DNA from: Hydrogenophaga sp. PBL-H3
GTDB taxonomy: Bacteria > Pseudomonadota > Gammaproteobacteria > Burkholderiales > Burkholderiaceae_C
DNA: 64,000 bases
Direction of reading: 5' to 3'
Assembly (NCBI RefSeq): GCF_010104355.1
Contig: NZ_CP044972.1
Span: forward strand, 496,001 to 560,000
Below the pieces are notes generated by a model. It worked only from the letters and a program-made list of their open reading frames with translations, made no database searches and was not told where the DNA came from. Positions 15,587 to 64,000 of the stretch are shown here, in pieces; within the stretch, counting starts at the first letter, position 1, and every line of letters starts with the position of its first letter. Both the position numbers and the translations under genes were made by a program.

Positions 15587-16690
15587 TCAACCGGCAGCGC
15601 GCAGGCGCTTCGAGTGGGTGTGCACCGCGTTCACCAGGGCCGACACATGCTCCGGCGGCGTGAACTGGCTGATGCCGTGGCCCAGGTTGAAGATGTGGGT
15701 GGCGCCCGTGCCCGGGCCCTGGTGGGGTTTGCCGAAACTCTCCAGCACGCGCGCCACTTCGGCGTCGATCTGCGCGGGCTGTGCGAACAGCACGTTGGGG
15801 TCGATGTTGCCTTGCAGGGCCTTGCCGTCCGGCCCTTCGCCCACCTGGGCGCGGGCCTTGGCCAGATTCACGGTCCAGTCCAGGCCGAGGGCATTGCAGT
15901 CCAGCGTTTTCATGTCGTCCAGCCACAGGCCGCCGCCCTTGGTGAAGACGATGCGCGGGATCACCACGCCCTCGTGTTCGCGTTTGAGCTGGGCCAGCAC
16001 GCGCCTGGTGTAAGCCAGGCTGAAGTCCTGGAAGTTGCCGTCGGCCAGCACACCGCCCCAGCTGTCGAACACCATCACGGCCTGCGCGCCGGCGTCGATC
16101 TGGGCGTTGAGGTAGGCGGCCACCGAGTCGGCGTTGATGGCCAGGATGCGGTGCATCAGGTCCGGGCGGCTGTACATGAGCGTCTTGACCGCGCGGTAGT
16201 CGTCCGAGCCGCCGCCCTCGACCATGTAGCAGGCCAGCGTCCAGGGGCTGCCCGAGAAGCCGATCAGGGGCACACGGCCATTCAAGGCCTTGCGGATGGA
16301 GGTGACCGCGTCGAACACGTAGCGCAGCTTGTCCATGTCGGGCACGGCCAGCGCGGCCACGTCGGCTTCGGTGCGCACGGTCTTCGCAAACTTCGGGCCT
16401 TCGCCCAGCGCGAACGACAGGCCCAGGCCCATGGCGTCGGGCACGGTGAGGATGTCGCTGAACAGGATGGAGGCGTCCAGCGCGTAACGCTCCAGCGGCT
16501 GCAGGGTCACCTCGGTGGCGTAGTCCACGTTGGTGGCCAGTCCCATGAAGCTGCCGGCCTTGGCGCGCGTGGCGCAGTACTCGGGCAGATAGCGACCCGC
16601 CTGGCGCATGAGCCACACCGGCGTGTGGTCGGTGGACTGGCGCAGGCAGGCGCGCAGGAAGGTGTCGTTCTTCAGGGGAGCAAAGGGCAT
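15587..16690 (-). CDS. hemE: Uroporphyrinogen decarboxylase
   Basis: HemE converts uroporphyrinogen III to coproporphyrinogen III in heme synthesis. The 367-residue product shows the family's N-terminal signature [15 protein letters not shown], the [13 protein letters not shown] region and the second signature [17 protein letters not shown]; the end contains FNLGHGI, also conserved. Length is normal for bacteria. The ATG at 16690 fits the family start. It lies 99 bases after the redoxin gene on the same strand and ends in its own terminator. Confidence 0.97.
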
Positions 16691-25214: not shown

Positions 25215-26480
<1,266 letters not shown>

Positions 26481-53454: not shown

Positions 53455-53736
53455 TCAGTGTTCCGAGAGCGGTTCGCCGGGTCGGACGCCTTGGTCCTCG
53501 CGAGCAACGGAGGCCTCTGCCGCGAGCCAGTCTTCCAGGTCGTGACCGTCCACGCAGCCGCGGGCCTCGTACAGCGCGTAGGCCGCTTCGTGAATGCGTG
53601 CCTCGCGCGAATAGCCGGCCTGCGCACTGCCAGAGCCGTCCGGACGAGCATGTCCATCTCCCAGGGACATCACCGCCATCGGAGGCCGCTTGATCAATGC
53701 CTTCGTGCCAACCGCGCTGGCTGAAGTCTGCTTCAT
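53455..53736 (-). CDS. DUF2934 domain-containing protein
   Basis: A 93-residue protein. The C-terminal part carries the DUF2934 pattern (IHEAAYALYEARGCVDGHDLEDWLAAEA), a short helical motif of unknown function common in proteins near stress genes of betaproteobacteria. The N-terminal half has no recognisable features. AGGAG precedes the ATG at 53736. The FNR-type box at 53844-53857 with a TAGTCT -10 on the minus strand (53822-53817) points to this gene. Confidence 0.85.
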   Translation of the reverse strand: MKQTSASAVGTKALIKRPPMAVMSLGDGHARPDGSGSAQAGYSREARIHEAAYALYEARGCVDGHDLEDWLAAEASVAREDQGVRPGEPLSEH

Positions 53737-53843
53737 GTCTGTGCTCCTGTTAATACAAGTATTTGTGGGTTGCACCTGAACTGCAGCTGCGTGAATGAAG
53801 CCGAGGGTGCATGTGCAGACTAGTGACTTGCGCGTTAACCACG

Positions 53844-53857
53844 TTGAGCACACTCAA
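53844..53857. promoter_or_regulatory. FNR/FixK/DNR-type box between the DUF2934 and CBS genes
   Basis: TTGAGCACACTCAA matches TTGA-N6-TCAA perfectly. On the minus strand TAGTCT (53822-53817) follows after 21 bp, toward the DUF2934 gene. On the plus strand only a weak -10 candidate is seen before the CBS gene. Confidence 0.65.
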
Positions 53858-53937
53858 TCCGGACACTTGCCCGGAGCGCACACTGAAACGCCTCGGAGAG
53901 GCAGTGGCCTTTCCTGGCCACGTCACAGGAGTTCCAC

Positions 53938-54480
53938 ATGCAAGTCGGCACCGTCTGTACCCGACAGGTCGTCACCATTGATGCCGGCAGCTCGGTTGCA
54001 GAAGCGGCGTGTCGCATGCGTGACCACCATGTTGGCTCGCTGGTGGTGACCCAATCCACCGCCGACGGCGCACAGGTGATCGGCATCGTGACGGATCGGG
54101 ATCTGGTGATGGACGTACTGACCCAGCCCGCAACATCCCTTCAAGCGCCGATCGAGACCTGGGCCCGGAAAGATCTCGTCTTCCTGGTGGAGGACGACAG
54201 TCTGGAGAACGCGGTGGCGGCAATGCAGGCGCGCGGTGTGAGGCGCCTGTTGGTGAAAGATGCCACGGGTCACCTGTGTGGCGTCCTTTCAATTGATGAC
54301 CTGTTGGACTCCTTTGCAGTCCACTTGGCAGGTCTGGCGGGCGTGTTTCGCAGCGGCCCTCAATGGAAGGCCGGTACGACGCAGGCGCCTTCCTTCGCCA
54401 AAAGCAGCGAATCCCCGCGGTTTCCCGGCTTTGGCCTCGGCGCGTGGTCGCGCGCCGTCTCCAGCGCGGGGCGGCCATGA
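53938..54480 (+). CDS. CBS-domain protein
   Basis: A 180-residue protein with a CBS pair: first repeat VCTRQVVTIDAGSSVAEAACRMRDHHVGSLVV ending at GIVTDRDLVMDVL, second from VFLVEDDSLENAVAAMQ to GVLSIDDLLD. Such pairs usually bind adenine nucleotides and sense energy or redox state. The last 45 residues are low-complexity and have no known domain. AGGAG precedes the ATG at 53938. It heads a plus-strand unit with a tiny membrane ORF. A second CBS protein is at the right end of the cluster. Confidence 0.88.
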   Translation: MQVGTVCTRQVVTIDAGSSVAEAACRMRDHHVGSLVVTQSTADGAQVIGIVTDRDLVMDVLTQPATSLQAPIETWARKDLVFLVEDDSLENAVAAMQARGVRRLLVKDATGHLCGVLSIDDLLDSFAVHLAGLAGVFRSGPQWKAGTTQAPSFAKSSESPRFPGFGLGAWSRAVSSAGRP

Positions 54481-54611
54481 GGCTGCTCATAGCTTTGATC
54501 GTTGCCCTGGTCACCATCTTCGGATCGCTGTTCGGCCTGCGCCGCTGCGAGGGCAGTGAATTGCCGAGCAACACCGTGTCTTCCCCGCTGTCCAGCCTCG
54601 CTTCCCGGTGA
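54477..54611 (+). CDS. Putative small membrane protein
   Basis: A 44-residue frame whose first 20 residues form one hydrophobic helix (MRLLIALIVALVTIFGSLFG), followed by a short polar tail. Its ATG overlaps the stop of the CBS gene (ATGA), which supports coupled translation. No homologous family is recognised, so it is tentative. Confidence 0.45.
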   Translation: MRLLIALIVALVTIFGSLFGLRRCEGSELPSNTVSSPLSSLASR

Positions 54612-54620
54612 GCCTTTACC

Positions 54621-55631
54621 TCACATCATCAGCACAGCCGCGCCCTGCAGGCGGCCGGCACGCAGGTCGTCCAGCGCTTTGTTGGCCTGTTCCAGCGCGT
54701 AGGCGGTGGTGTCCACCCGCAGGGGCGCGGTGTCCACGAACGCGAGGAACGCCGAGGCATCGGCACGAGTGAGGTTGGCCACCGAGACCAGCTGACGCTC
54801 CTCCCACAGCCATGCGTAGGGAAAGGCCGGGATATCGCTCATGTGAATGCCCCCGCACACCACACGTCCGCCCTTGCGCACGGCGCGCAAGGCCAGCGGC
54901 ACCAGTGCACCCACCGGCGCAAAGATGATCGCGGCGTCCAGCGGTGTGGGTGGAGCCTCGTCGGAACCGCCCGCCCATGCAACGCCCAGCTCACGCGCAA
55001 AGCCCTGGGCCTGCGCATCGCCGGGGCGGGTGAAGGCGTACACCTGCCGGCCTTGGTGCCGCGCGACCTGGGCCATCAGGTGGGCCGCCGCCCCGAAGCC
55101 GTAGAGACCAAGCACCCGGGCATCATCGCCGGCCATGCACAAGGCCCGCCAGCCGATCAGTCCGGCACACAGCAGGGGCGCCAGGTGCTGCGCGTCCATG
55201 GGCAGGTCCAGCGGCAGGCAGAACGCGGCTTCGGCGATCACATGGCTGGCAAAACCGCCGTCGCGCCCCTGTCCGGTGAACAGCGCGTGGTCGCACAGGT
55301 TCTCGCGCCCGACCCGGCAGAACGCGCAGTGGCCGCAGGTGTGGGCCAACCAAGGCACGCCCATGCGCTCACCCAGCCGGCTCGCGTCCACGCCCGGCCC
55401 CACCGCTTCCACCACACCGACGATCTCGTGTCCCGGCACCAGCGGCAGCCGCGGCAAGGGCAACTCGCCGTCGACCACATGCAGGTCGGTTCGGCACACG
55501 GCACAGGCCTCGACACGAAGCCGCAGCTCACCCGGCCCGGGCTCGGGCAGTAGGCGGGTTTCCAGCCGCAGGGCCTGGGCGGGCGCGTGCAGGACCATGG
55601 CGCGCATCGTGGACGGAGAGATCCGGGACAT
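54621..55631 (-). CDS. Zinc-dependent alcohol dehydrogenase family protein
   Basis: A 336-residue medium-chain dehydrogenase. Catalytic zinc ligands are Cys in CRTDLHVVDG and the HE pair of VPGHEIVG; the structural zinc site has four cysteines in CGHCAFCRVGRENLC. The NAD-binding segment is VLGLYGFGAAAHLMAQVA, in which the glycine motif is slightly unusual (GFGAAA). Similar enzymes occur in anaerobic and stress gene clusters. The ATG at 55631 was chosen with AAGG upstream. It is divergent from the UspA gene, with an FNR-like box between them. Confidence 0.9.
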   Translation of the reverse strand: MSRISPSTMRAMVLHAPAQALRLETRLLPEPGPGELRLRVEACAVCRTDLHVVDGELPLPRLPLVPGHEIVGVVEAVGPGVDASRLGERMGVPWLAHTCGHCAFCRVGRENLCDHALFTGQGRDGGFASHVIAEAAFCLPLDLPMDAQHLAPLLCAGLIGWRALCMAGDDARVLGLYGFGAAAHLMAQVARHQGRQVYAFTRPGDAQAQGFARELGVAWAGGSDEAPPTPLDAAIIFAPVGALVPLALRAVRKGGRVVCGGIHMSDIPAFPYAWLWEERQLVSVANLTRADASAFLAFVDTAPLRVDTTAYALEQANKALDDLRAGRLQGAAVLMM

Positions 55632-55665
55632 GGCGGGACCTTGACCCGGCTTGAACAGCCCGGGA

Positions 55666-55679
55666 TTGAGCCTGCGCAA
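55666..55679 (+). promoter_or_regulatory. FNR-like box (one mismatch) upstream of the UspA gene
   Basis: TTGAGCCTGCGCAA has seven of eight TTGA/TCAA positions. TAGCGT at 55702-55707 follows after 22 bp, the same geometry as at the cytochrome c gene. Confidence 0.5.
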
Positions 55680-55742
55680 CGAAGTCCGGATCGAGTGGGC
55701 GTAGCGTCCCGTTCGCGCACGATTACTTTCAAAGGTCAGACC

Positions 55743-56564
55743 ATGCAAGCCCCCGGCTCCATCCTGCTGCATCTCGACAGTTCAGCCCGCACGGCCCAGC
55801 GCATCCAGCTCGCGCGCCAACTGGCCGAGGATTTTTCGGCGCAGGTGACGGGCCAGCCCTGCCTGCTGACGGCCCTGGTGCGCTACCCGTTTGCCATGGA
55901 AGGCGCAGGCGCCGCCGTGGCCGCCACGCAGGAGCAGGACAAGGAGGCGATCGACAAGATCCACAAGCTGTTCCATCAGCTCGCGGCTGGCCATGGCCGG
56001 CTTCATTGGACCGACCCGCTGGCCGATGGGCCGTGGGGCTTTGCGCGCCAGGCCCTGTATGCCGATCTGGTGATCCTGGGACAGCGCGATGCGAAGGACC
56101 CTGCGGCGGCGGAACTGCCGTCCGACTTTGTCTCCAGCGTGCTGCTCGACAGCGGTCGGCCCGGCCTGATCCTGCCCTTCAGCGGCGAGATCGGTGTCGT
56201 CGGTCGCACGGTGCTGGTGGCCTGGAAGGAGACCCGCACGTCGGCCCGCGCAGTGTCTGCGTCCTTGCCCTGGCTGCAGCGGGCAGGGCAGGTGCACGCA
56301 GTGGGGTTCGGCGAAGACGTGGATGCGACGCTGCAACCGCTGCAAGACTACCTGCAGACCCACTGTGTTCACACCAAGACCCACGCGGGCGGCCCTGAAG
56401 ACAGCGAGGTCGGTGAACGCCTGCTGTCGATGGCGGCGGACGTGGACGCGGACCTGCTCGTGATGGGCTGCTATGGACACGGGCGGACCCGCGAGTGGGT
56501 GCTGGGAGGTGCCACGCGCACGGTGCTGGCCTCGATGACGCTGCCGGTGTTGATGGCGCATTGA
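55743..56564 (+). CDS. Tandem universal stress protein (UspA family)
   Basis: A 273-residue protein made of two Usp folds. The first repeat is degenerate. The second carries the ATP-binding pattern G-2x-G-9x-G-T in MGCYGHGRTREWVLGGATRTVL. In other proteobacteria, Usp genes of this kind are induced by oxygen limitation through FNR/Anr. The ATG at 55743 follows a weak AGG site. The stop codon lies inside the FNR-type box of the next unit. Confidence 0.9.
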   Translation: MQAPGSILLHLDSSARTAQRIQLARQLAEDFSAQVTGQPCLLTALVRYPFAMEGAGAAVAATQEQDKEAIDKIHKLFHQLAAGHGRLHWTDPLADGPWGFARQALYADLVILGQRDAKDPAAAELPSDFVSSVLLDSGRPGLILPFSGEIGVVGRTVLVAWKETRTSARAVSASLPWLQRAGQVHAVGFGEDVDATLQPLQDYLQTHCVHTKTHAGGPEDSEVGERLLSMAADVDADLLVMGCYGHGRTREWVLGGATRTVLASMTLPVLMAH

Positions 56565-56574
56565 GCAGGCTCAA
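56561..56574 (+). promoter_or_regulatory. FNR/FixK/DNR-type box upstream of the GYD-protease-DHH-PRPP unit
   Basis: TTGAGCAGGCTCAA matches TTGA-N6-TCAA perfectly and overlaps the UspA stop codon. TAGAGT (56596-56601) follows after 21 bp; the GYD gene starts about 30 bases later. Confidence 0.65.
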
Positions 56575-56634
56575 GCGGCTTTCGCGGTGGGCCCCTAGAG
56601 TGACCTCCTTGCTGTCACGCAACGGGAAGTCGCC

Positions 56635-56943
56635 ATGCCCACCTTCATCCTCCTGACCCGCCTGGCGCCGCAGGCATTGCACCAGCCCAAGTCGTTCGAG
56701 ACGCTGGAGCGGCACGTGTCGCAGCAGGTGCTGAACCACTGCCCGACGCTGAAGTGGGTCAGCAGCCACGCGCTGCTGGGCCCCTGGGACTACCTGGACA
56801 TCATCGAGGCGCCCGACATGGAGACCATGACGCGGGCTTCCCTGCTGGTGCGCAGCTACGGCAAGGCCCACACCGAAATCTGGCCCGCCATGCCGTGGCC
56901 CGACTTCAAGCAGATGCTGCGGGCCCTGGCCCAGGAGGAGTGA
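56635..56943 (+). CDS. GYD-domain protein
   Basis: A 102-residue protein of the GYD family (TFILLTRLAPQAL, LGPWDYLDIIEAPDMETM, AHTEIWPAMPW). The domain is a small alpha/beta fold related to ferredoxin-like proteins; its role is unknown. It is the first gene of a four-gene plus-strand unit that probably starts at the FNR-type promoter just upstream. Confidence 0.85.
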   Translation: MPTFILLTRLAPQALHQPKSFETLERHVSQQVLNHCPTLKWVSSHALLGPWDYLDIIEAPDMETMTRASLLVRSYGKAHTEIWPAMPWPDFKQMLRALAQEE

Positions 56944-56948
56944 GCAGG

Positions 56949-58391
56949 ATGGACATGCACCGGCGAGCACACACGCAGGCGTTGTGGCGTGCCCGGTGGG
57001 TGGCCCTGGTGGTGAGCGCCTTGCAGGGCATGGTCGCGCCGGCACAGACCCCGCCACCGGTGGCCCCGCGGGCCGCCGTGATCCCGGGGGCGATCATGCC
57101 CAACTACCGCGCCATCGTTCAGCTGGCTGCGCCGGCCGTGGTCGGCATCACGGTCACCGGCTCGCGCAAGGTCTCGCCCCAGGACTGGCTGCCCTGGCCC
57201 GACGAAGAGCCCTTCTCCTCCCTCTTCAAGAACCTGCCGCGCGGCACACCGCCGGGTGAGCGGGCTTTTCGTGGCCAGGGCTCGGGCTTCATCATCACGG
57301 CCGACGGCCTGGTGCTCACCAGCGCGCACGTCATCCAGGGCGCCGAGCAGATCCTGGTACGGCTGAGCGACCGGCGCGAGTTCAAGGCCCAGGTGCTGGG
57401 GACCGATCCGCTGACCGATGTGGCGGTGCTGCGCGTGGCAGCCAGCCAGTTGCCGGTGGTGCGGCTGGGGCGCGTGGACGACCTGCAAGTGGGTGACCCG
57501 GTGCTCGCGATCGGCGCACCCTACGGCCTGGAGCAGACCGCCACGCAAGGCATCGTGAGCGCCAAAGGCCGTGCCTTGCCCGGCGAATCCGTTGTCACGT
57601 TCATCCAGACCGACGCGGCGGTGAACCCGGGCAACTCGGGTGGGCCCTTGCTCGATGCCAGCGCTTCGGTGGTGGGCATCAACGCCCAGATCTATTCACA
57701 GTCGGGCGGCTACCAGGGCCTGTCGTTCGCCATTCCGATCGAGGTGGCCTTGCGCGTCAAGGACCAGATCGTCGCGCACGGGCGGGCCCAGCATGCGCGG
57801 CTGGGTGTGTCGATCCAGAACCTGAACCAGTCGCTGGCCCGCTCCTTCGGCCTTGATGTGCCCAATGGCGCCCTGGTGGTGAGTGTGGCGCGCGACAGCG
57901 CCGCACGCTCCGCCGGCCTGATGGCGGGTGACGTGATCACGTCCGTCAATGGCCAGCGCGTCGACAACGCAGGCGAACTCGGCGCCCGGCTGGCGCTGCT
58001 GTCACCCGGCGACACGGTCCAACTCACGGTGTGGCGCAACCGTGCCCAGCGCACATTGAGCGTGACACTGGGGCGGGCCTCCGACGACACGGCTCCGAGC
58101 ACCCAAAGGTCCGCTGCGGCACCGGGCCAACTCGGTCTGAACCTGCGACCGCTCACTCGCGAGGAGCGCGAAGCGGCGTCGCTGGACAGTGGCGGCTTGA
58201 TGGTCGTGGACAGCTCGGGCCTGGCGGCGCGCGCGGGGGTGGTGGCGGGCGACGTGCTGCTGGCGGTCAATGGCACACCGGTGTCGTCAGTGGAGCAGGT
58301 GCGCGCCATGATTGCGCGCAAGCCCCCTGCCGTGGCGCTGCTGATCGAGCGAGACGGTGATCGTCTTTTCATTCCCGTCGAGTTGGACTGA
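56949..58391 (+). CDS. DegP/DegQ-like periplasmic serine protease (S1C) with two PDZ domains
   Basis: A 480-residue HtrA-type protease for periplasmic quality control. A short signal segment (residues about 14-32) is followed by the trypsin-like domain with the triad His127 (TSAHVI), Asp157 (LTDVAVL) and Ser230 (GNSGGPL). Two PDZ domains follow (LGVSIQNL and on; LGLNLRPL and on). ATG at 56949, 5 bases after the GYD gene. It may protect envelope proteins under the same stress that induces the neighbours. Confidence 0.93.
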   Translation: MDMHRRAHTQALWRARWVALVVSALQGMVAPAQTPPPVAPRAAVIPGAIMPNYRAIVQLAAPAVVGITVTGSRKVSPQDWLPWPDEEPFSSLFKNLPRGTPPGERAFRGQGSGFIITADGLVLTSAHVIQGAEQILVRLSDRREFKAQVLGTDPLTDVAVLRVAASQLPVVRLGRVDDLQVGDPVLAIGAPYGLEQTATQGIVSAKGRALPGESVVTFIQTDAAVNPGNSGGPLLDASASVVGINAQIYSQSGGYQGLSFAIPIEVALRVKDQIVAHGRAQHARLGVSIQNLNQSLARSFGLDVPNGALVVSVARDSAARSAGLMAGDVITSVNGQRVDNAGELGARLALLSPGDTVQLTVWRNRAQRTLSVTLGRASDDTAPSTQRSAAAPGQLGLNLRPLTREEREAASLDSGGLMVVDSSGLAARAGVVAGDVLLAVNGTPVSSVEQVRAMIARKPPAVALLIERDGDRLFIPVELD

Positions 58392-58400
58392 ATCCCCGCC

Positions 58401-59405
58401 ATGACAGCACCCGACACGACACCGCCCCGGGGTCATGCGGTGGCGCGCTTCGATGTGTGCAATGGTGATGCCGATGGGCTGTGCGCGGTGCGGCAGTGGC
58501 GCCTGCACGACCCGTCGGCTGCGCGCCTGATCACCGGGCTCAAGCGCGACATTGCCCTGTTGCAACAGGTGCCGTGCGTGGCGGACAGTGAGGTGCTGGT
58601 GTGCGACCTGTCGATGCAGCGCAACCGGGCAGCGCTGGACCGGCTGTTGGAGGGCGGCGCGCAGGTGCGCTGGTTCGATCACCACTGGAGCGGTCCGGTG
58701 CCGGCCCACCATCGCCTTGATGCCCACCTCGATTTCAGCCATGAGGTGTGCACCAGCCTGCTGGTGGACCGGTACCTGGGCGGGCGCTTCCGCGCCTGGG
58801 CCCTGGTGGGTGCCTACGGCGACGAACTCACCGCCGTGGCCGACCGCCTGGGTGAGGCGTCGGGGCTCGACCCGTTGCACCGCGCGCTGCTGCGCCGCCT
58901 TGGCCTGGCCATCAACTACAACGCCTACGGCGAAGACCCGTCGGACGTGTGCATCGCGCCAGCCGGGTTGTACGAGCGACTGGCGCGCCACAGCTCGCCG
59001 TGGACCCTGCTGCGCGACGAACCGGTGATCCACGAGATCGAGGCCTGCCGGCGGCGCGACTTCCGGGTGGCCATGGGGGTCCAGCCCCATTGGGAAAGCG
59101 CGCAGGCCCGCGTGGTGGTGCTGCCCTCGGCACCCTGGAGCCGCCGGGTCTCGGGTTTCCTGGCCAACGCGCTGGCGGCGGTGCACCCCGGCCAGGCCCA
59201 GGCCGTGCTCACCGAGCGGCACGACGGCCACTACACGGTCAGTGTTCGCGCGCCGCGCACGTCACCCCATGGCGCACACACGGTGTGCCAGGCCTTTGGT
59301 GGCAGCGGGCGGGCCGCTGCCGCCGGCATCGACGCCCTGCCCGCGGACGCGCTGGACCCTTTTGTGCGCTCACTGTCGCAGGCGCGCTGGGAAGCCCCAT
59401 GCTGA
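58401..59405 (+). CDS. DHH-family phosphoesterase
   Basis: A 334-residue phosphoesterase of the DHH superfamily (RecJ, NrnA, c-di-AMP phosphodiesterases). Motif I is FDVCNGDADG, and the DHH motif is WFDHHWSG. The C-terminal DHHA1-like element reads GGSGRAAAAG where GGGH-x-x-AAG is usual, so the conserved histidine seems to be missing. Substrate unknown. Its last 7 bases overlap the PRPP-synthetase homologue, and it begins 9 bases after the protease gene. Confidence 0.88.
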   Translation: MTAPDTTPPRGHAVARFDVCNGDADGLCAVRQWRLHDPSAARLITGLKRDIALLQQVPCVADSEVLVCDLSMQRNRAALDRLLEGGAQVRWFDHHWSGPVPAHHRLDAHLDFSHEVCTSLLVDRYLGGRFRAWALVGAYGDELTAVADRLGEASGLDPLHRALLRRLGLAINYNAYGEDPSDVCIAPAGLYERLARHSSPWTLLRDEPVIHEIEACRRRDFRVAMGVQPHWESAQARVVVLPSAPWSRRVSGFLANALAAVHPGQAQAVLTERHDGHYTVSVRAPRTSPHGAHTVCQAFGGSGRAAAAGIDALPADALDPFVRSLSQARWEAPC

Positions 59406-60373
59406 TCTTTTCGCTCGACGGAGGCACCGATCTGGCGCGCGCCCTGAGCACCCGGCTGGCGCAGCCGCTGGCCGACTTCGAGGACCGCGCCTTCGAAGAC
59501 GGCGAACACAAGTGGCGCCCGCTGTGTGACCCGCGCGCGCAGCAGGTGTTCGTGCTGGCCAGCCTGCACGGCCGCCCCGACGCGAGCCCGCACGACGCCC
59601 TGTGCCGGCTGTTGATGTTCATCGGTACGCTGCGCGACCACGGCGCGGCGCGCATCACGGCCCTGGTGCCCTATCTGGCCTATGCGCGCAAGGACCGCCG
59701 GACGCAACCATTCGATCCGCTGGCACTTCGATACGTGGCTCAAATGTTCGAAGCGGTCGGCACCGACGAGTTGGTGGTGCTCGATGCGCACAATTCAGCG
59801 GCCCTTCAGAACGCGTTTCGGGTACCAACCCAACTGCTGGAGGCCCATCAGGCTTTTCAGACCGTAGCCCGAGCCATTGCAGAACATGGACCATGCGCAG
59901 TGGCATCTCCCGACCCGGGAGGGGTGAAACGGGCACAGCTGTGGCGAGAGGCACTGGAGACTGAGCTCTCACAACCTCTGGGCTTTGCCGTGGTGGACAA
60001 GCGGCGCAGGGCGGGTCAGGTCACAGGTCAGCATCTGGTGGCGGGTGACGTGGAGGGTTGTACCGTGCTGCTGCTCGACGACCTCATCGCCAGCGGCGAG
60101 ACCATGGTGAGGGCTGCCATCGCATTGCGCCTGGCCGGCGCGCGCGAGGTAGTGGCGTTCGCCGCCCATGGCCTGTTCACGGGCGACGCCTGCCTTGTTC
60201 TTGGCGACCCAGCCATCAGTCGGGTGGTGGTGACCAACAGCGTGCCGTCATTCCGCGTACCGGCGGATTCGGCCTTGGCGGGCAAGCTGACGGTTGTGTC
60301 GGCCGCCGCCCTCTTTTCGGAGGCCGTCAGCGAGCGCTGCTCGTCGATTCCGGCGGCTCCACCGATTCGTTGA
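59399..60373 (+). CDS. Ribose-phosphate pyrophosphokinase homologue (second, stress-linked type)
   Basis: A 324-residue homologue of PRPP synthetase. Conserved: YLAYARKDRRTQPF, the histidine of LDAHNS, SPDPGGVKRA, the flexible-loop start K201-R-R in VDKRRRAG and the PRPP-binding loop DD in LLDDLIASGET (227-228). It is clearly more divergent than the housekeeping enzyme, so it may make PRPP under special conditions or act on another sugar phosphate. Overlap with the DHH gene implies coupled translation. Its 3' end overlaps the convergent phosphotransferase gene by 47 bases. Confidence 0.85.
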   Translation: MLIFSLDGGTDLARALSTRLAQPLADFEDRAFEDGEHKWRPLCDPRAQQVFVLASLHGRPDASPHDALCRLLMFIGTLRDHGAARITALVPYLAYARKDRRTQPFDPLALRYVAQMFEAVGTDELVVLDAHNSAALQNAFRVPTQLLEAHQAFQTVARAIAEHGPCAVASPDPGGVKRAQLWREALETELSQPLGFAVVDKRRRAGQVTGQHLVAGDVEGCTVLLLDDLIASGETMVRAAIALRLAGAREVVAFAAHGLFTGDACLVLGDPAISRVVVTNSVPSFRVPADSALAGKLTVVSAAALFSEAVSERCSSIPAAPPIR

Positions 60374-61403
60374 GCAAGAGGGCGTCCAAGGCCATTTGAG
60401 CATGCATCACATAGCGCCCTGCTTGCGGCATCCACCGCTCGGGCGTGCGAGGCTGTGGGTCCAATAGATGCGCCACCGAAAGGCGCGCTCGCACTAGGGC
60501 ACGGTGGGCGGTGTACAGCTGCAGCACCGTGTGGGTAGGCCTGTCGCCCAGCGCTCGTTCACATCCACTCATAACGCGCTCTCCGATCCATCCAGCACCG
60601 GCCATGCGGCATTCGAGCGCAAGGAAAGCCAACTCGTCGAACGGATCGACCTGCCGCAGCGATGCGCTGAACTCAATGCAGTCGATGACCACGGGTGGGT
60701 GCAGAAGGCACACATGCTCGGGCCGAAGGTCGCCATGCCCATCAACGATTCGTCCCGACAGGGCACGAATTCCGAGGGCTGCTTGGTGCAACGCGAGTCC
60801 CGTCCTCATTTGTTGAATCGCCTGCGCAGCGCCTGGGACCACCCAACGCGGGTCCAACAGCACACGGCTGCTGAGGCGCAACTCCTGCAGCATGCGATCG
60901 ACATGATGCATGGGTGAGATGTTGGCCGGCACAGCGGTGCGATAGAAGTCGGCCAATATCCGCACCAAGGCATCAACGTCGCCCTCCAGGACCGTGCGGT
61001 GGGCCATGGCTTCGTCCAGCATGCGGGCCCGGGGTAACCGCTTCATGTGAACCAGCCAGTCCACCACATAACTGCTCCGATGCACCAGTGGCTCGTTGAC
61101 CAGCAAAGGTCGACCGTCCACGAGCGTCAAGGCCATCAGGCCCTGGTAGATGCCCGGCGCCAGGCGGGCATTGAGACGCACCTCTTCGCGGCAGAAGGCC
61201 TCGCGATAGCCGAGCTGGGTGAAATCCAGAAAGGCTTGGCGCACCGGCTTCTTGAGCTTGAGCACCTGATCCTTCAAAAGAAACACCCACGACATGTGGG
61301 TCTCGATCACCTCCAATTCGCCGGGCTGGGCGCTCGATTGCAGAGCGACCAGGGCCAACTCGTGGCTGGTGTCGGCGCTGGTCAAGTTTGCGCTGGAGCT
61401 CAC
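60327..61403 (-). CDS. Aminoglycoside-phosphotransferase-like kinase family protein
   Basis: A 358-residue protein of the protein-kinase-like phosphotransferase fold. N-terminal SWVFLLKDQVLKLKKPV suits the ATP-binding lysine region; the catalytic loop is DGHGDLRPEHVCL and the metal-binding aspartate is in VVIDCIEFS. It matches the kinase half of a family that often has an extra P-loop domain; that second domain is absent here. Substrate unknown; a role in antibiotic resistance is not implied. It is probably the last gene of the hsp20-hsp20-cytochrome unit. Confidence 0.82.
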   Translation of the reverse strand: MSSSANLTSADTSHELALVALQSSAQPGELEVIETHMSWVFLLKDQVLKLKKPVRQAFLDFTQLGYREAFCREEVRLNARLAPGIYQGLMALTLVDGRPLLVNEPLVHRSSYVVDWLVHMKRLPRARMLDEAMAHRTVLEGDVDALVRILADFYRTAVPANISPMHHVDRMLQELRLSSRVLLDPRWVVPGAAQAIQQMRTGLALHQAALGIRALSGRIVDGHGDLRPEHVCLLHPPVVIDCIEFSASLRQVDPFDELAFLALECRMAGAGWIGERVMSGCERALGDRPTHTVLQLYTAHRALVRARLSVAHLLDPQPRTPERWMPQAGRYVMHAQMALDALLLNESVEPPESTSSAR

Positions 61404-61428
61404 GACTCAACGTCCCCCGTCGTGTCGG

Positions 61429-61851
61429 CTATTGCTGGAGCCGTTCGAGGTGATTCACCAAGTCCAGGATTCGTCGGCGCGCTGCATCTTCCGCGAGTTG
61501 TGGGTTGCCTCCGGCCTGCGTGAAGCGCTCGACATAGGTGTTGCCCCAGACCGGCATCTCACGCGAGCCGTGCGGGCCGATGTCGGTCGAACCGCGCCCG
61601 TCAATCAACGCAACCAGCCGTTCGCGCGGAAACACGCCGCCGTTGCGTTGCGCCAGCCGGGAGAGGTCGGTGGGCGGAGTCACGAGATAGCGCGTCAGAG
61701 GTCCATCCCCACGTCCACTGGCCCCATGGCAACTGGCACAACTGTTCTGGTAGTCCCAGCGCCCCGGGCCCGCTCGAGGCTGAGCCTGGGCGGAAGCCAT
61801 CAGCGCTAGCAGCAGGGCCGACACGATCCAACAGGGTCTCATGGTGTTCAT
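61429..61851 (-). CDS. Small periplasmic c-type cytochrome (copy 2)
   Basis: A 140-residue monoheme cytochrome c. The signal peptide ends near AQAQ; heme site is C38-A-S-C41-H42, with the likely axial methionine in SREMPVWG. It is a paralogue of the cytochrome at 26547-26978, sharing the SCHG-x-GRGDGPL, PTDLSRLAQRNGGV and HGSREMPVWG pattern. It is located between hsp20 and the phosphotransferase, probably in one transcript. An ATG three codons later is an alternative start. Confidence 0.9.
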   Translation of the reverse strand: MNTMRPCWIVSALLLALMASAQAQPRAGPGRWDYQNSCASCHGASGRGDGPLTRYLVTPPTDLSRLAQRNGGVFPRERLVALIDGRGSTDIGPHGSREMPVWGNTYVERFTQAGGNPQLAEDAARRRILDLVNHLERLQQ

Positions 61852-61874
61852 GCTGGCCTCCTGGTTACATTCCC

Positions 61875-62354
61875 TCAGGCGCCGTGCACGGGAATGCGCC
61901 GGCCCCGGTCGCGGTCTACACGCGGCATGTCGATTCGCAAAACGCCGTTGCGGTAGTGGGCCTGGGTGTGCTGCGCGTCGACTCTGTGCGGCAAGCTAAC
62001 GTCGCGCCGGAAGCTGCCGTAAGCACACTGCATCAAACGGTAGCCACCGTCGCCACTCTCTTGCTCGATACGCTTTTCACCGGAGACACTGAGCAGGTCA
62101 CCGTCGATATCGATCTGCAGGTCTTCACGGTTCATGCCGGGCAGTTCCATGCGCACGATGATGCGGTCGTCCTCCACCCGAAGGTCGGCGAATACCAGCC
62201 CCCAGGCTGCGCCGGCCTTGTTGTCCGGCGCAGCGTCGTGGCGGAAACGCGTAAGCGCCCCGCCAGCGCGCCGACGCAGGTCACGCCAACCTTCTGCCAG
62301 CGAAGCCCACGCGTGTTGCACGCCCTGTCGCCAAGGTGCTGTGAGCGTGTTCAT
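61875..62354 (-). CDS. Hsp20/alpha-crystallin small heat shock protein
   Basis: A 159-residue small chaperone. The alpha-crystallin domain begins near FADLRVEDDRIIVRMELPGMNREDLQID and includes LLSVSGEKRIEQE and the NGVLRIDMPR strand. The N-terminal arm is longer and arginine-rich. It follows the first hsp20 gene by 4 bases. The two are divergent enough to be distinct subunits or hetero-oligomer partners. Confidence 0.92.
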   Translation of the reverse strand: MNTLTAPWRQGVQHAWASLAEGWRDLRRRAGGALTRFRHDAAPDNKAGAAWGLVFADLRVEDDRIIVRMELPGMNREDLQIDIDGDLLSVSGEKRIEQESGDGGYRLMQCAYGSFRRDVSLPHRVDAQHTQAHYRNGVLRIDMPRVDRDRGRRIPVHGA

Positions 62355-62358
62355 GGCG

Positions 62359-62787
62359 TCACTGAACCGCTATGCGCTTGCTGGAGGTGTCGGCCTTCTT
62401 GGGCAGGGTCAGCGCCAGGATGCCGTCCTGGTAGCTGGCCTGCACCTTGGCTTCATCCACCGGACAGGCCAGTGTGAAGCTGCGGCTGGCGTAGCCCTCC
62501 TGGCGTTCCTGGCGCAGCATGCGACCACCGTTGTCCTTTTCTTGCTTTTCCGTCTTCACCTCGGCGCTGATGGTGACCACGTTACCGTCGACGCGCACGT
62601 CGATGTCGTCCTTCTTCACGCCGGGAATCTCGGCCTTGACGGCGTAGCTGCCGTTCTGCTCGGAGAGATCGAGCTTGATGCGCGGCGCGGCTTCCGGCAT
62701 CTCGAAGCGCCATGGGCGCATGAGAGAACGGAAGGTGTCGTCGAAGGGGTCGAGGGCGAACGGGTCAATGGTGCGAAGTTCATTCAT
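62359..62787 (-). CDS. Hsp20/alpha-crystallin small heat shock protein
   Basis: A 142-residue small chaperone with the alpha-crystallin domain PRIKLDLSEQNGSYAVKAEIPGV to GILALTLPKK and the terminal IxV-like motif KRIAVQ. GGAG lies before the ATG at 62787. It is the first gene of the inferred four-gene minus-strand unit hsp20-hsp20-cytochrome-phosphotransferase; an imperfect FNR-like box is about 108 bases upstream. Confidence 0.93.
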   Translation of the reverse strand: MNELRTIDPFALDPFDDTFRSLMRPWRFEMPEAAPRIKLDLSEQNGSYAVKAEIPGVKKDDIDVRVDGNVVTISAEVKTEKQEKDNGGRMLRQERQEGYASRSFTLACPVDEAKVQASYQDGILALTLPKKADTSSKRIAVQ

Positions 62788-62894
62788 GGTGATGCTCCTT
62801 GAGAACAGTGAAAGAGGGACGCCCGCCGGGGCCAGATGCATTCGGCGCGGTGCCGACGCCAGAGCCATGTTGCGCCGGTAGCGTCCCCCCGCCA

Positions 62895-62908
62895 TTGAGT
62901 CAACGCAA
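62895..62908 (-). promoter_or_regulatory. FNR-like box (one mismatch) upstream of hsp20
   Basis: On the minus strand the sequence reads TTGCGTTGACTCAA, seven of eight positions of TTGA-N6-TCAA. At the -10 position only a weak hexamer (CAACAT) is found, so this is the least certain member. Confidence 0.35.
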
Positions 62909-62937
62909 TGCAGGGACACGCAACCACTGGCGCTTCA

Positions 62938-63399
62938 TCAGGCCCGCTCGCGTCGCTCGCGCAGGGCTTCGGTCTCGATCACGGATGCCATCTCGCGCAG
63001 CTGCTCGGCCAACAGGGCAAGCACGTCGTCCAGCGTCACCAGGCCGACCAGTACCCCTTGCGATGTGACCACCGGCAGGCGGCGAATGCCCTTGCGGCGT
63101 ATGGTCACGAGCATGTCCTTGACCGAGTCGTCTTCCAGTGCGCTGATGAGTTCACGGCTCATCACATCGCCCACGGTGAGCTGGGTGGCATCGAGTTCGC
63201 GCGCAACCACGGCGGTCACGATGTCGCGGTCGGTGAGCATGCCCACCACCAGGCGGCCCGCGCCGGTCTCGTCGACCACGACCAGGCAACCCACATGCCG
63301 TCTGCGCATGAGCTGCGCGGCCTGCACCAGCGACAGGTCGCGCTCGGCGAACACCACGATGCGGTTGCAGACATCGCCTGCCAGCATTTTTTCACGCAT
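62938..63399 (-). CDS. CBS-domain protein
   Basis: A 153-residue protein that is essentially one CBS pair (VVFAERDLSLVQAAQLMRRRHVGCLVVV to GMLTDRDIVTAVV; VMSRELISALEDDSVKDML to GLVTLDDVLALL). It lacks the long tail of the other CBS protein in the cluster. Similar stand-alone CBS proteins bind AMP/ATP. It follows the BON gene by 48 bases and may share its transcript. ATG at 63399 with GGAG upstream. Confidence 0.9.
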   Translation of the reverse strand: MREKMLAGDVCNRIVVFAERDLSLVQAAQLMRRRHVGCLVVVDETGAGRLVVGMLTDRDIVTAVVARELDATQLTVGDVMSRELISALEDDSVKDMLVTIRRKGIRRLPVVTSQGVLVGLVTLDDVLALLAEQLREMASVIETEALRERRERA

Positions 63400-63447
63400 G
63401 TTGCTCTCCGGCCCGGGTGGACGAGACAAGGCCGCAGCGGTCCTGGT

Positions 63448-64000
63448 TCAAGGGCTGATGCGCAGTTCGTTGTCGACCCGCGTGATGCCCGGCGCCGACC
63501 AGGCCGCGCCCTGAGCCGCCACACGCTCGGCCAACGAATGCACGGAGCCCCGCAGCACGGAGGTGGAGCCGTTGACATGCACCTCGATCCCCTTGGCCTC
63601 GCGCTCGGCCTGGCGTGTGAGCGCATCCCGGATACGTTTGCCGATGTTGTCCGGCGCGATTCGGGGTTTGAGCACGATGGCGTTGTTGACACCCACTACA
63701 CCGACCAGCGGCCGCACCAGGTTGGCGGCGGCAGCGCGCTGAAACTCCCAGTCGACTTCACCAGTGAGGGTGACCCAGCCTTTCTCGACCTTCACCTGAA
63801 TGCGCTCGGCCGGCACCGAGCTGTGCCATTGGAATGCAGTCTCCACGGCGTGGGCGATTTCGGAATCGCTGCGTGCGCTGCCGGCCGTCAGCTTGACGTC
63901 GATCTCGATCGCCACGGCGCGCACGCCCGCCACGCGCTGCGCCACCTTCTCCACCTCGTACTTCTCCACGAACGTGTTCAGGTGCCCCGAGAGCGTCACC
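63448..64000 (-). CDS. BON-domain protein (OsmY-like, cut by window end)
   Basis: The last 183 residues of a protein with repeated BON domains: the visible ones show the VTLTGEVDWEFQRAAAANLVRPLVGVVGVNN and VNGSTSVLRGSVHSLAERVAA patterns, and a first repeat is interrupted by the window edge (VTLSGHLNTFVEKYEVEKVAQRVAGV). BON proteins such as OsmY are periplasmic stress proteins that may bind membranes. No signal peptide can be judged because the N-terminus is missing; the GTG at 63999 is internal. Confidence 0.9.
   Translation of the reverse strand, partial: VTLSGHLNTFVEKYEVEKVAQRVAGVRAVAIEIDVKLTAGSARSDSEIAHAVETAFQWHSSVPAERIQVKVEKGWVTLTGEVDWEFQRAAAANLVRPLVGVVGVNNAIVLKPRIAPDNIGKRIRDALTRQAEREAKGIEVHVNGSTSVLRGSVHSLAERVAAQGAAWSAPGITRVDNELRISP

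Follow-up and report, generated by a model that had tools for sequence, protein, structure and literature searches.

A duplicated stress gene cluster in Hydrogenophaga sp. PBL-H3 with class II FNR-type operators, probably switched on at low oxygen

A stretch of 64,000 nucleotides from Hydrogenophaga sp. PBL-H3 (contig NZ_CP044972.1, here C1:496001-560000; hereafter the window) carries genes for universal stress proteins (Usp), Hsp20 small heat-shock proteins and other stress-type products behind sequences that resemble binding sites of the oxygen regulator FNR. An initial annotation, made from the letters of the window, took these sequences as the mark of a low-oxygen regulon. Are they operators, and if so, which regulator would read them, and when? 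The sites, their spacing and statistics, their conservation and the presence of a regulator gene were observed or computed here, within the genome (4.82 Mb in 3 contigs) and in related genomes. We put at about three in four the probability that the class II FNR-type operators are real, that canonical FNR is the likeliest activator and that the cluster is turned on as oxygen falls.

The box pattern used throughout was TTGA-N6-TCAA, a box being perfect when it matches at 8/8 positions, and the offset being the number of bp from the end of the box to a -10 hexamer. Four perfect boxes lie in the window (26436, 48910, 53844 and 56561), where shuffling gave a mean of 0.41 and 0/100 shuffles reached four. 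With at most one change, 30 sites fit as compared with 10.1 expected. The five boxes named in the initial annotation are all correctly placed but form a selection from these 30; three (26436, 53844 and 56561) are perfect, while 55666 and 62895 have one mismatch. A TAGNNT hexamer had been said to follow the first four, and it does so at offsets of 22 (26436), 21 (53844, minus strand), 22 (55666) and 21 bp (56561; hexamers in Table 1). No TAGNNT was found at that spacing from box 62895, where CAACAT stands instead at offset 22, and this box and hexamer recur together in the second copy of the cluster described below. The fourth perfect box, 48910, which the initial annotation did not mention, is probably a chance match because it has no -10 element and lies in a frame whose translation reads as a secY-like protein.

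When the hexamer is placed at -12 to -7, the centre of the box falls at -40.5 (21 bp) or -41.5 (22 bp), as the class II geometry proposed for these promoters would have it. The box was also considered as a -35 hexamer read by sigma-70 in the usual way, but this was rejected on the distance: from the end of TTGAGC to the -10 there are 29-30 bp and not ~17 bp. The observation itself, boxes with a fixed spacing to the -10, is confirmed.

As the spacing was first noticed in the window, it was tested outside it. Perfect boxes number 87 genome-wide, compared with 27 for the reversed control, and the spacing was counted on 76 of the 87 (152 flanks); of five look-alike sites on contig C3 (105 kb) one was counted and four were not, nor were 7 sites without a listed position. 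The five sites on C3 are identical (TTGAGTTCCTTCAA, reverse strand, at 16678, 28739, 43510, 68484 and 79173) and are probably a repeated element. Among the 152 flanks, 10 have TANNNT beginning at offset 21 and 6 at offset 22, with 0-2 at each other offset from 0 to 59. Together these make 16/152, whereas shuffled flanks averaged 0.96 and never exceeded 5 in 500 trials. TAG begins 11 of the 16 hexamers, which agrees with the TAGNNT form first described. Without the window, 13 TANNNT matches at 21-22 are left among 72 sites; three of the 13 (C1:563841, 3361573 and 3366012) fall within the cluster beyond the window or within its second copy, and the other 10 elsewhere. Separately, an FNR-type box with a -10 at 21-22 stands before similar small cytochrome c genes at three places, namely window 26436, C1:1901729 and L114:7982, the last in a Hydrogenophaga metagenome-assembled genome (MAG).

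The cluster extends beyond the window. Copy A spans C1:549455-563721 (window 53455-67721) and holds 17 genes. Past the window end come the rest of the BON gene, which extends to 64101, genes for a saccharopine-dehydrogenase-type enzyme and a small protein, and a GroEL paralogue that reaches 67721; further boxes stand at 64364 and 67841. A diverged copy B lies at C1:3361203-3371997 (L022:5203-15997), with a nucleotide identity of 71-89% in the aligned pieces. Counterparts of 10 of the 17 copy-A genes were found there (protein identity 60-96%), namely DUF2934, zinc-type alcohol dehydrogenase (ADH, in two pieces), Usp, GYD (42/102 residues), DHH, cytochrome c, Hsp20a, CBS153, BON and GroEL. No match in locus L022 was found for the genes of HtrA, phosphoribosyl pyrophosphate (PRPP) synthetase, the saccharopine-type enzyme and the small protein; the kinase-like gene matched fragments only, while for the remaining Hsp20 and CBS genes the only matches were their paralogues. 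Genes were called with a crude codon-score caller, and its long frames, e.g. L022:6380-9898, are probably mistaken.

At each of five promoters (DUF2934, Usp, GYD, Hsp20 and BON), both copies carry a box that is perfect or one mismatch off, followed by [TC]ANNNT at 21-22, with spacers that are partly changed. The -10 pairs of copies A and B are TAGTCT and TAGGCT for DUF2934 and TAGCGT and TAATTT for Usp; TAGAGT (GYD), CAACAT (Hsp20) and CACACT (BON) are the same in both. At the Usp promoter of copy B, the one-mismatch box TTGACGCTGCGCAA aligns with box 55666 and has TAATTT at 21; at the GYD promoter, TTGAGCATGCTCAA at C1:3366012 is followed at 21 by an identical TAGAGT though most of the spacer differs; and at the Hsp20 promoter, the one-mismatch box TTGCGTTCGCTCAA occupies the collinear place L022:12840. 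The initial annotation would have counted a lack of boxes upstream of orthologues against its reading, and this check did not refute it, boxes being kept at these five promoters of the second copy and relatives being compared per locus, not per gene. On the whole, the comparison of the copies is a fair argument that boxes and -10 elements are under selection.

The best kept gene between the copies is that of the GroEL paralogue (544 aa; L017:6087-7721 and L022:14363-15997), with 96% protein identity. Several copy-A proteins are nearer to the Hydrogenophaga MAG locus L114 than to copy B (Hsp20a 99% vs 88%, BON 94% vs 90%, DHH 88% vs 84%), while cytochrome c and GroEL are nearer to copy B, only 64 residues of GroEL being aligned in L114.

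The same promoter arrangement recurs beyond this genome. Named records yielded 65 loci with relatives of the DHH-like protein. Most are from Burkholderiales, and the closest relative (88% identity) is in a Hydrogenophaga MAG; in these loci, relatives of the PRPP-synthetase homologue occur in 24/65 and of the kinase-like protein in 38/65. The 65 loci (1.12 Mb) contain 84 perfect boxes, in 34 loci, as compared with 6 matches to a control pattern. Spacing was counted on 83 of the 84 sites (166 flanks), one lying too near an end, and TANNNT occurs at 21 (17 flanks) or 22 (6 flanks), 23/166 in all, where shuffling gave a mean of 0.52 and a maximum of 3 in 500. CANNNT (27) and GANNNT (18) also peak at offsets 21-22, so the -10 element is degenerate at its first base. 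By reading of their translations, the frames behind the boxed promoters include those for Usp, BON, CBS, GroEL-like, DUF2934, cytochrome c, phosphoenolpyruvate (PEP) synthase-like and acetate kinase-like proteins.

Which regulator would bind such boxes? A search for Crp-type helix-turn-helix domains gave 20 matches in the genome, 14 of them over the cut-off. Among the 15 loci that were read, four regulators (L070, L071, L073 and L081) have E-x-x-S-R in the recognition helix. L070 (C1:2691534-2692253) is a canonical FNR with C-x2-C-x5-C, one further cysteine and an LETVSR helix; the cysteines and the ExxSR helix correspond to those of E. coli FNR. It adjoins hemN-like and cbb3-oxidase-like genes (named by reading) which themselves have perfect boxes. 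In L073 and L081 the Glu is preceded by an Arg, as it is in CRP, and both were for this reason set aside as unlikely activator candidates. The fourth, L071 (C1:1914491-1915348; L019:14491-15348, minus strand), is an FNR-like protein with an HETVSR helix but without C-x2-C-x5-C, and the genes around its own, a third stress cluster, include those of Usp, BON, HtrA-like and cytochrome c proteins. All 13 aligned L071-type sequences, its own included, have an AHET[VI]SR helix, and the cysteine set was not seen in any of the 13 over the stretch that was read, the N-terminal starts being uncertain and one sequence (L190) being cut short.

Close relatives of L071 occur in 13/150 family genomes, this one included, with the cut placed at a gap in the scores. 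At E <= 1e-20 the L071 query matches 126/150 genomes, most of them at ~90-122 bits, and FNR is probably widespread in the family because the FNR of this genome scores in that range too (101 bits). With its sensor cysteines present and its distribution probably wide, FNR is taken as the default candidate for the regulator. The next-best matches to the FNR-like query in other genomes, 17 loci (L194-L210) that are presumably FNR, have one perfect box in 15/17 cases, and 14/15 of these show [TCG]ANNNT at 21-22. CACAGT or CACATT stands at offset 22 in 9 cases, while the control pattern occurs 2 times in 60.6 kb. The box geometry at these loci is the same as in the stress cluster. Operator, -41.5-type spacing, conservation in homologous promoters, and an FNR with four Fe-S cysteines and ExxSR were thus all found.

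Several points weigh against a low-oxygen cluster under FNR. Only 16/152 flanks in the genome have TANNNT at the spacing, and many of the 87 sites are therefore probably chance or inactive. The GroEL promoter disagrees between the copies: nothing in copy B corresponds to copy-A box 67841 and its TAGGCT, and the one-mismatch GroEL boxes 67892 and L022:16074 are unequally far from the start (171 and 77 bp), which speaks against their being a box kept in both copies. The two copies are in any case not independent of each other, and some of the related loci are close kin and likewise not independent (e.g. L132/L165 and L125/L136). No perfect box occurs in 31/65 related loci, and genes of the cluster are unevenly present in the 65 (Usp 7, Hsp20 8, BON 13, CBS 14, GroEL 5, DUF2934 1, GYD 1). 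The exact cluster is rare, with the GYD protein in 1/150 family genomes, namely this one, in both copies. Lastly, other regulators could be the activator, be it L073, L081 or the cysteine-poor FNR-like protein, which could act in place of FNR or alongside it.

The most serious alternative gives the leading part to the cysteine-poor protein L071, which FNR would switch on through the promoter box TTGATGTGCATCAA and which would then activate the stress boxes, often of TTGAGC form, in a two-tier cascade parallel to that of Anr and Dnr. Its recognition helix is of FNR type in the absence of the FNR cysteine set, there is a perfect box upstream of its gene, and in the same-genus genome G114 a TTGAGCATGCTCAA site lies in the locus of its orthologue. 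GC follows TTGA in 30/168 half-sites of the 65 stress loci as compared with 0/30 in L194-L210, which could point to a reader of its own for the stress boxes. However, the box upstream of the L071 gene has no [TCG]ANNNT at 21-22, and close relatives of L071 are limited to 13/150 family genomes, yet a TTGAGCNNGCTCAA site occurs in 75/150. The counts of TTGAGCNNGCTCAA per genome do not track the gene either, with a mean of 0.83 in the 12 genomes that have it (our own left out) and 0.73 in the 137 that do not (Mann-Whitney p = 0.74). We consider such a cascade unlikely. A wider form of the idea, to which we give somewhat less credence again, is that stress clusters of this lineage use a box sub-class, TTGAGC-N2-GCTCAA, read mainly by the cysteine-poor regulator that FNR switches on, and that the duplicated and third clusters would form a delayed second low-oxygen tier, apart from a respiratory tier of TTGAT type.

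Repression offers another way to read the sites, which would then be mainly repressor sites or belong to promoters that are read differently, the -10 match being incidental. FNR-family repression is known, 5/39 Group I promoters being repressed in Herbaspirillum (PMC5934665), but the narrow peak at 21-22 bp has the geometry of an activator and was found in each of two separate data sets, and we hold this reading to be very improbable. Chance palindrome-like sequences of a GC-rich genome, picked out by eye, have next to nothing in their favour: box 48910 looks like chance, as probably do many of the 26 sites with one mismatch (the expectation for up to one change is 10.1), and single sites can be chance, but the shuffle tests, the out-of-window test, the second copy and the relatives all speak against it, as the initial annotation had supposed from the window, and for the set as a whole chance is already refuted.

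Returning to activation by FNR, we infer the binding, the direction of regulation, the oxygen signal and the physiological role as follows. An FNR-family dimer centred at -40.5 or -41.5, and overlapping the place of the -35, would recruit RNA polymerase to a poor -10, either TAGNNT or CANNNT/GANNNT. The activator would most likely be the canonical, oxygen-labile [4Fe-4S] FNR of C1:2691534-2692253, acting when oxygen is low. Box 53844, a palindrome, may serve both the DUF2934 gene (through TAGTCT) and the CBS gene (through CACACT); in the second copy no -10 was found on the CBS side of this box, where no counterpart of that CBS gene stands. Box 55666 lies between divergent genes and is perhaps also two-directional. 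Box 56561 would drive the row of GYD, HtrA, DHH and PRPP genes, which are separated by 5, 9 and -7 bp, and two minus-strand groups would be driven from boxes 62895 (Hsp20-cytochrome c) and 64364 (BON-CBS). The products, namely Usp, two Hsp20 proteins, the GroEL paralogue, HtrA, BON, CBS, ADH and cytochrome c, may safeguard proteins and the cell envelope under oxygen shortage and help to hold the redox state in balance. From sequence evidence, then, the stress cluster is probably switched on at low oxygen.

The features are collected in Table 1. Most gene names rest on Pfam searches; the kinase-like label, for which there was no Pfam match, is presumed.

Table 1. FNR-type boxes, putative -10 elements and genes of the window (positions from its first letter).
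Feature	Position	Strand	Remarks
Perfect FNR-type box TTGAGCAACCTCAA	26436..26449	+	Upstream of cytochrome c gene
Putative -10 TAGGAT	26472..26477	+	Offset 22 from box 26436
Cytochrome c-like gene, 143 aa	26547..26978	+	Named from its CASCH haem motif; open reading frame starts 97 bp past box; start chosen by script
DUF2934 protein, 93 aa	53455..53736	-	Pfam PF11154, E 2.9e-14
Putative -10 TAGTCT for DUF2934 gene	53817..53822	-	Offset 21; copy B has TAGGCT at 21
Perfect FNR-type box TTGAGCACACTCAA	53844..53857	.	Between divergent DUF2934 (-) and CBS (+); kept in copy B at C1:3361573
Possible weaker -10 CACACT towards CBS gene	53879..53884	+	Offset 21; CANNNT enriched at 21-22 in related loci
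Two-CBS-domain protein	53938..54480	+	Pfam PF00571, E 7.5e-23
Zinc-type ADH	54621..55607	-	Pfam PF08240, E 7.4e-28
One-mismatch box TTGAGCCTGCGCAA	55666..55679	+	Divergent spacer ADH/Usp
Putative -10 TAGCGT for Usp	55702..55707	+	Offset 22
Usp, 273 aa	55743..56564	+	Pfam PF00582, E 1.5e-06
Perfect box TTGAGCAGGCTCAA	56561..56574	+	Overlaps usp 3' end
Putative -10 TAGAGT for GYD-HtrA-DHH-PRPP row	56596..56601	+	Offset 21
GYD-domain protein	56635..56943	+	Pfam PF08734, E 4.4e-21
HtrA/DegP-type protease with PDZ domains	56949..58391	+	Pfam Trypsin_2, PDZ
DHH-phosphoesterase-like protein	58401..59405	+	Named by reading; 0 Pfam families
PRPP-synthetase homologue	59399..60373	+	Pfam PF13793, PF14572
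Kinase-like protein	60327..61397	-	0 Pfam families
Cytochrome c	61429..61851	-	Pfam PF00034, E 1.6e-4, above its cut-off
Hsp20 small heat-shock protein	61875..62354	-	Pfam PF00011, E 6.8e-19
Hsp20 small heat-shock protein	62359..62787	-	Pfam PF00011, E 8.3e-21
Possible -10 CAACAT	62867..62872	-	Offset 22 from box 62895; likewise at 22 in copy B
One-mismatch box TTGCGTTGACTCAA (minus strand)	62895..62908	-	Upstream of Hsp20 gene
Two-CBS-domain protein	62938..63399	-	Pfam PF00571, E 1e-26
BON-domain protein	63448..64000, on to 64101 past window	-	Pfam PF04972
Box TTGAGCATGCTCAA of BON gene	64364 (C1:560364)		CACACT at 22; box and CACACT at 22 in both copies

What began as a pattern found by eye is now quantified as a promoter grammar of box, 21-22 bp and [TCG]ANNNT. 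It is met again in related loci, most of them from Burkholderiales, and can serve to list FNR-family targets in unstudied genomes. A stress cluster of low-oxygen type is present twice in one genome with its operators kept, and a subfamily of cysteine-poor FNR-like regulators is brought to attention. Searches of an open-licence library yielded no report of this duplicated cluster or of this FNR-like family, no search having been aimed at the latter.

How does the cluster compare with known systems? DosR is a two-component response regulator with a different operator, and the comparison with it made in the initial annotation is kept as a functional analogy only, with no membership claimed. The DosR regulon of Mycobacterium tuberculosis includes Usp and alpha-crystallin genes that are induced in hypoxia (PMC6127331). 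In Burkholderia cenocepacia J2315 and K56-2, the lxa locus (BCAM0275-BCAM0323) comprises 50 genes; it is induced when oxygen is low and is required for persistence under anoxia (PMC6127331, PMC9104464), and Usp, alpha-crystallin and BON proteins are among its products (PMC6127331, PMC3759415, PMC9104464). The likeness, compared by domains and not by sequences, lies in the universal stress proteins, alpha-crystallin (BCAM0278) and BON (BCAM0280) of lxa and the Usp, Hsp20 and BON domains found here. Unlike the 50 genes of lxa, copy A has 17, of which 10 have a copy-B counterpart, and DUF2934, GYD, HtrA, DHH-like and PRPP-synthetase genes are among those of the cluster. Strain H111, which is described as being without the lxa locus, has the FNR-type regulators Anr1 and Anr2, which are needed for anoxic survival, with anr2 beside uspA, and a TTGATCTCGATCAA site before its cytochrome bd genes (PMC9104464). 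Deletion of anr has been reported to alter cyd and cio-1 expression (PMC11742914).

In Herbaspirillum seropedicae, Fnr1 and Fnr3 directly activate uspA_1/2, adhA and cytochrome genes, and the bound promoters, with Fnr-type motifs, include those of two uspA genes, adhA, cytochrome c and oxidase genes (PMC5934665), much as Usp, ADH and cytochrome c genes stand behind FNR-type boxes here. Whereas Herbaspirillum has three Fnr orthologues and proposed Fnr3-Fnr1 heterodimers, the 15 loci read in Hydrogenophaga sp. PBL-H3 include a single canonical FNR and a single cysteine-poor protein of FNR-like type. The initial proposal of an FNR-type regulon is supported in part. It stands as regards class II FNR-type operators, their conservation in the second copy, their recurrence in relatives and the canonical FNR gene, while binding by FNR, induction at low oxygen and a dormancy role would be its predictions. 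The idea is not new for the order, where comparable gene sets are published, namely lxa in B. cenocepacia and the Fnr-controlled Usp, adhA and cytochrome genes of Herbaspirillum (PMC6127331, PMC5934665).

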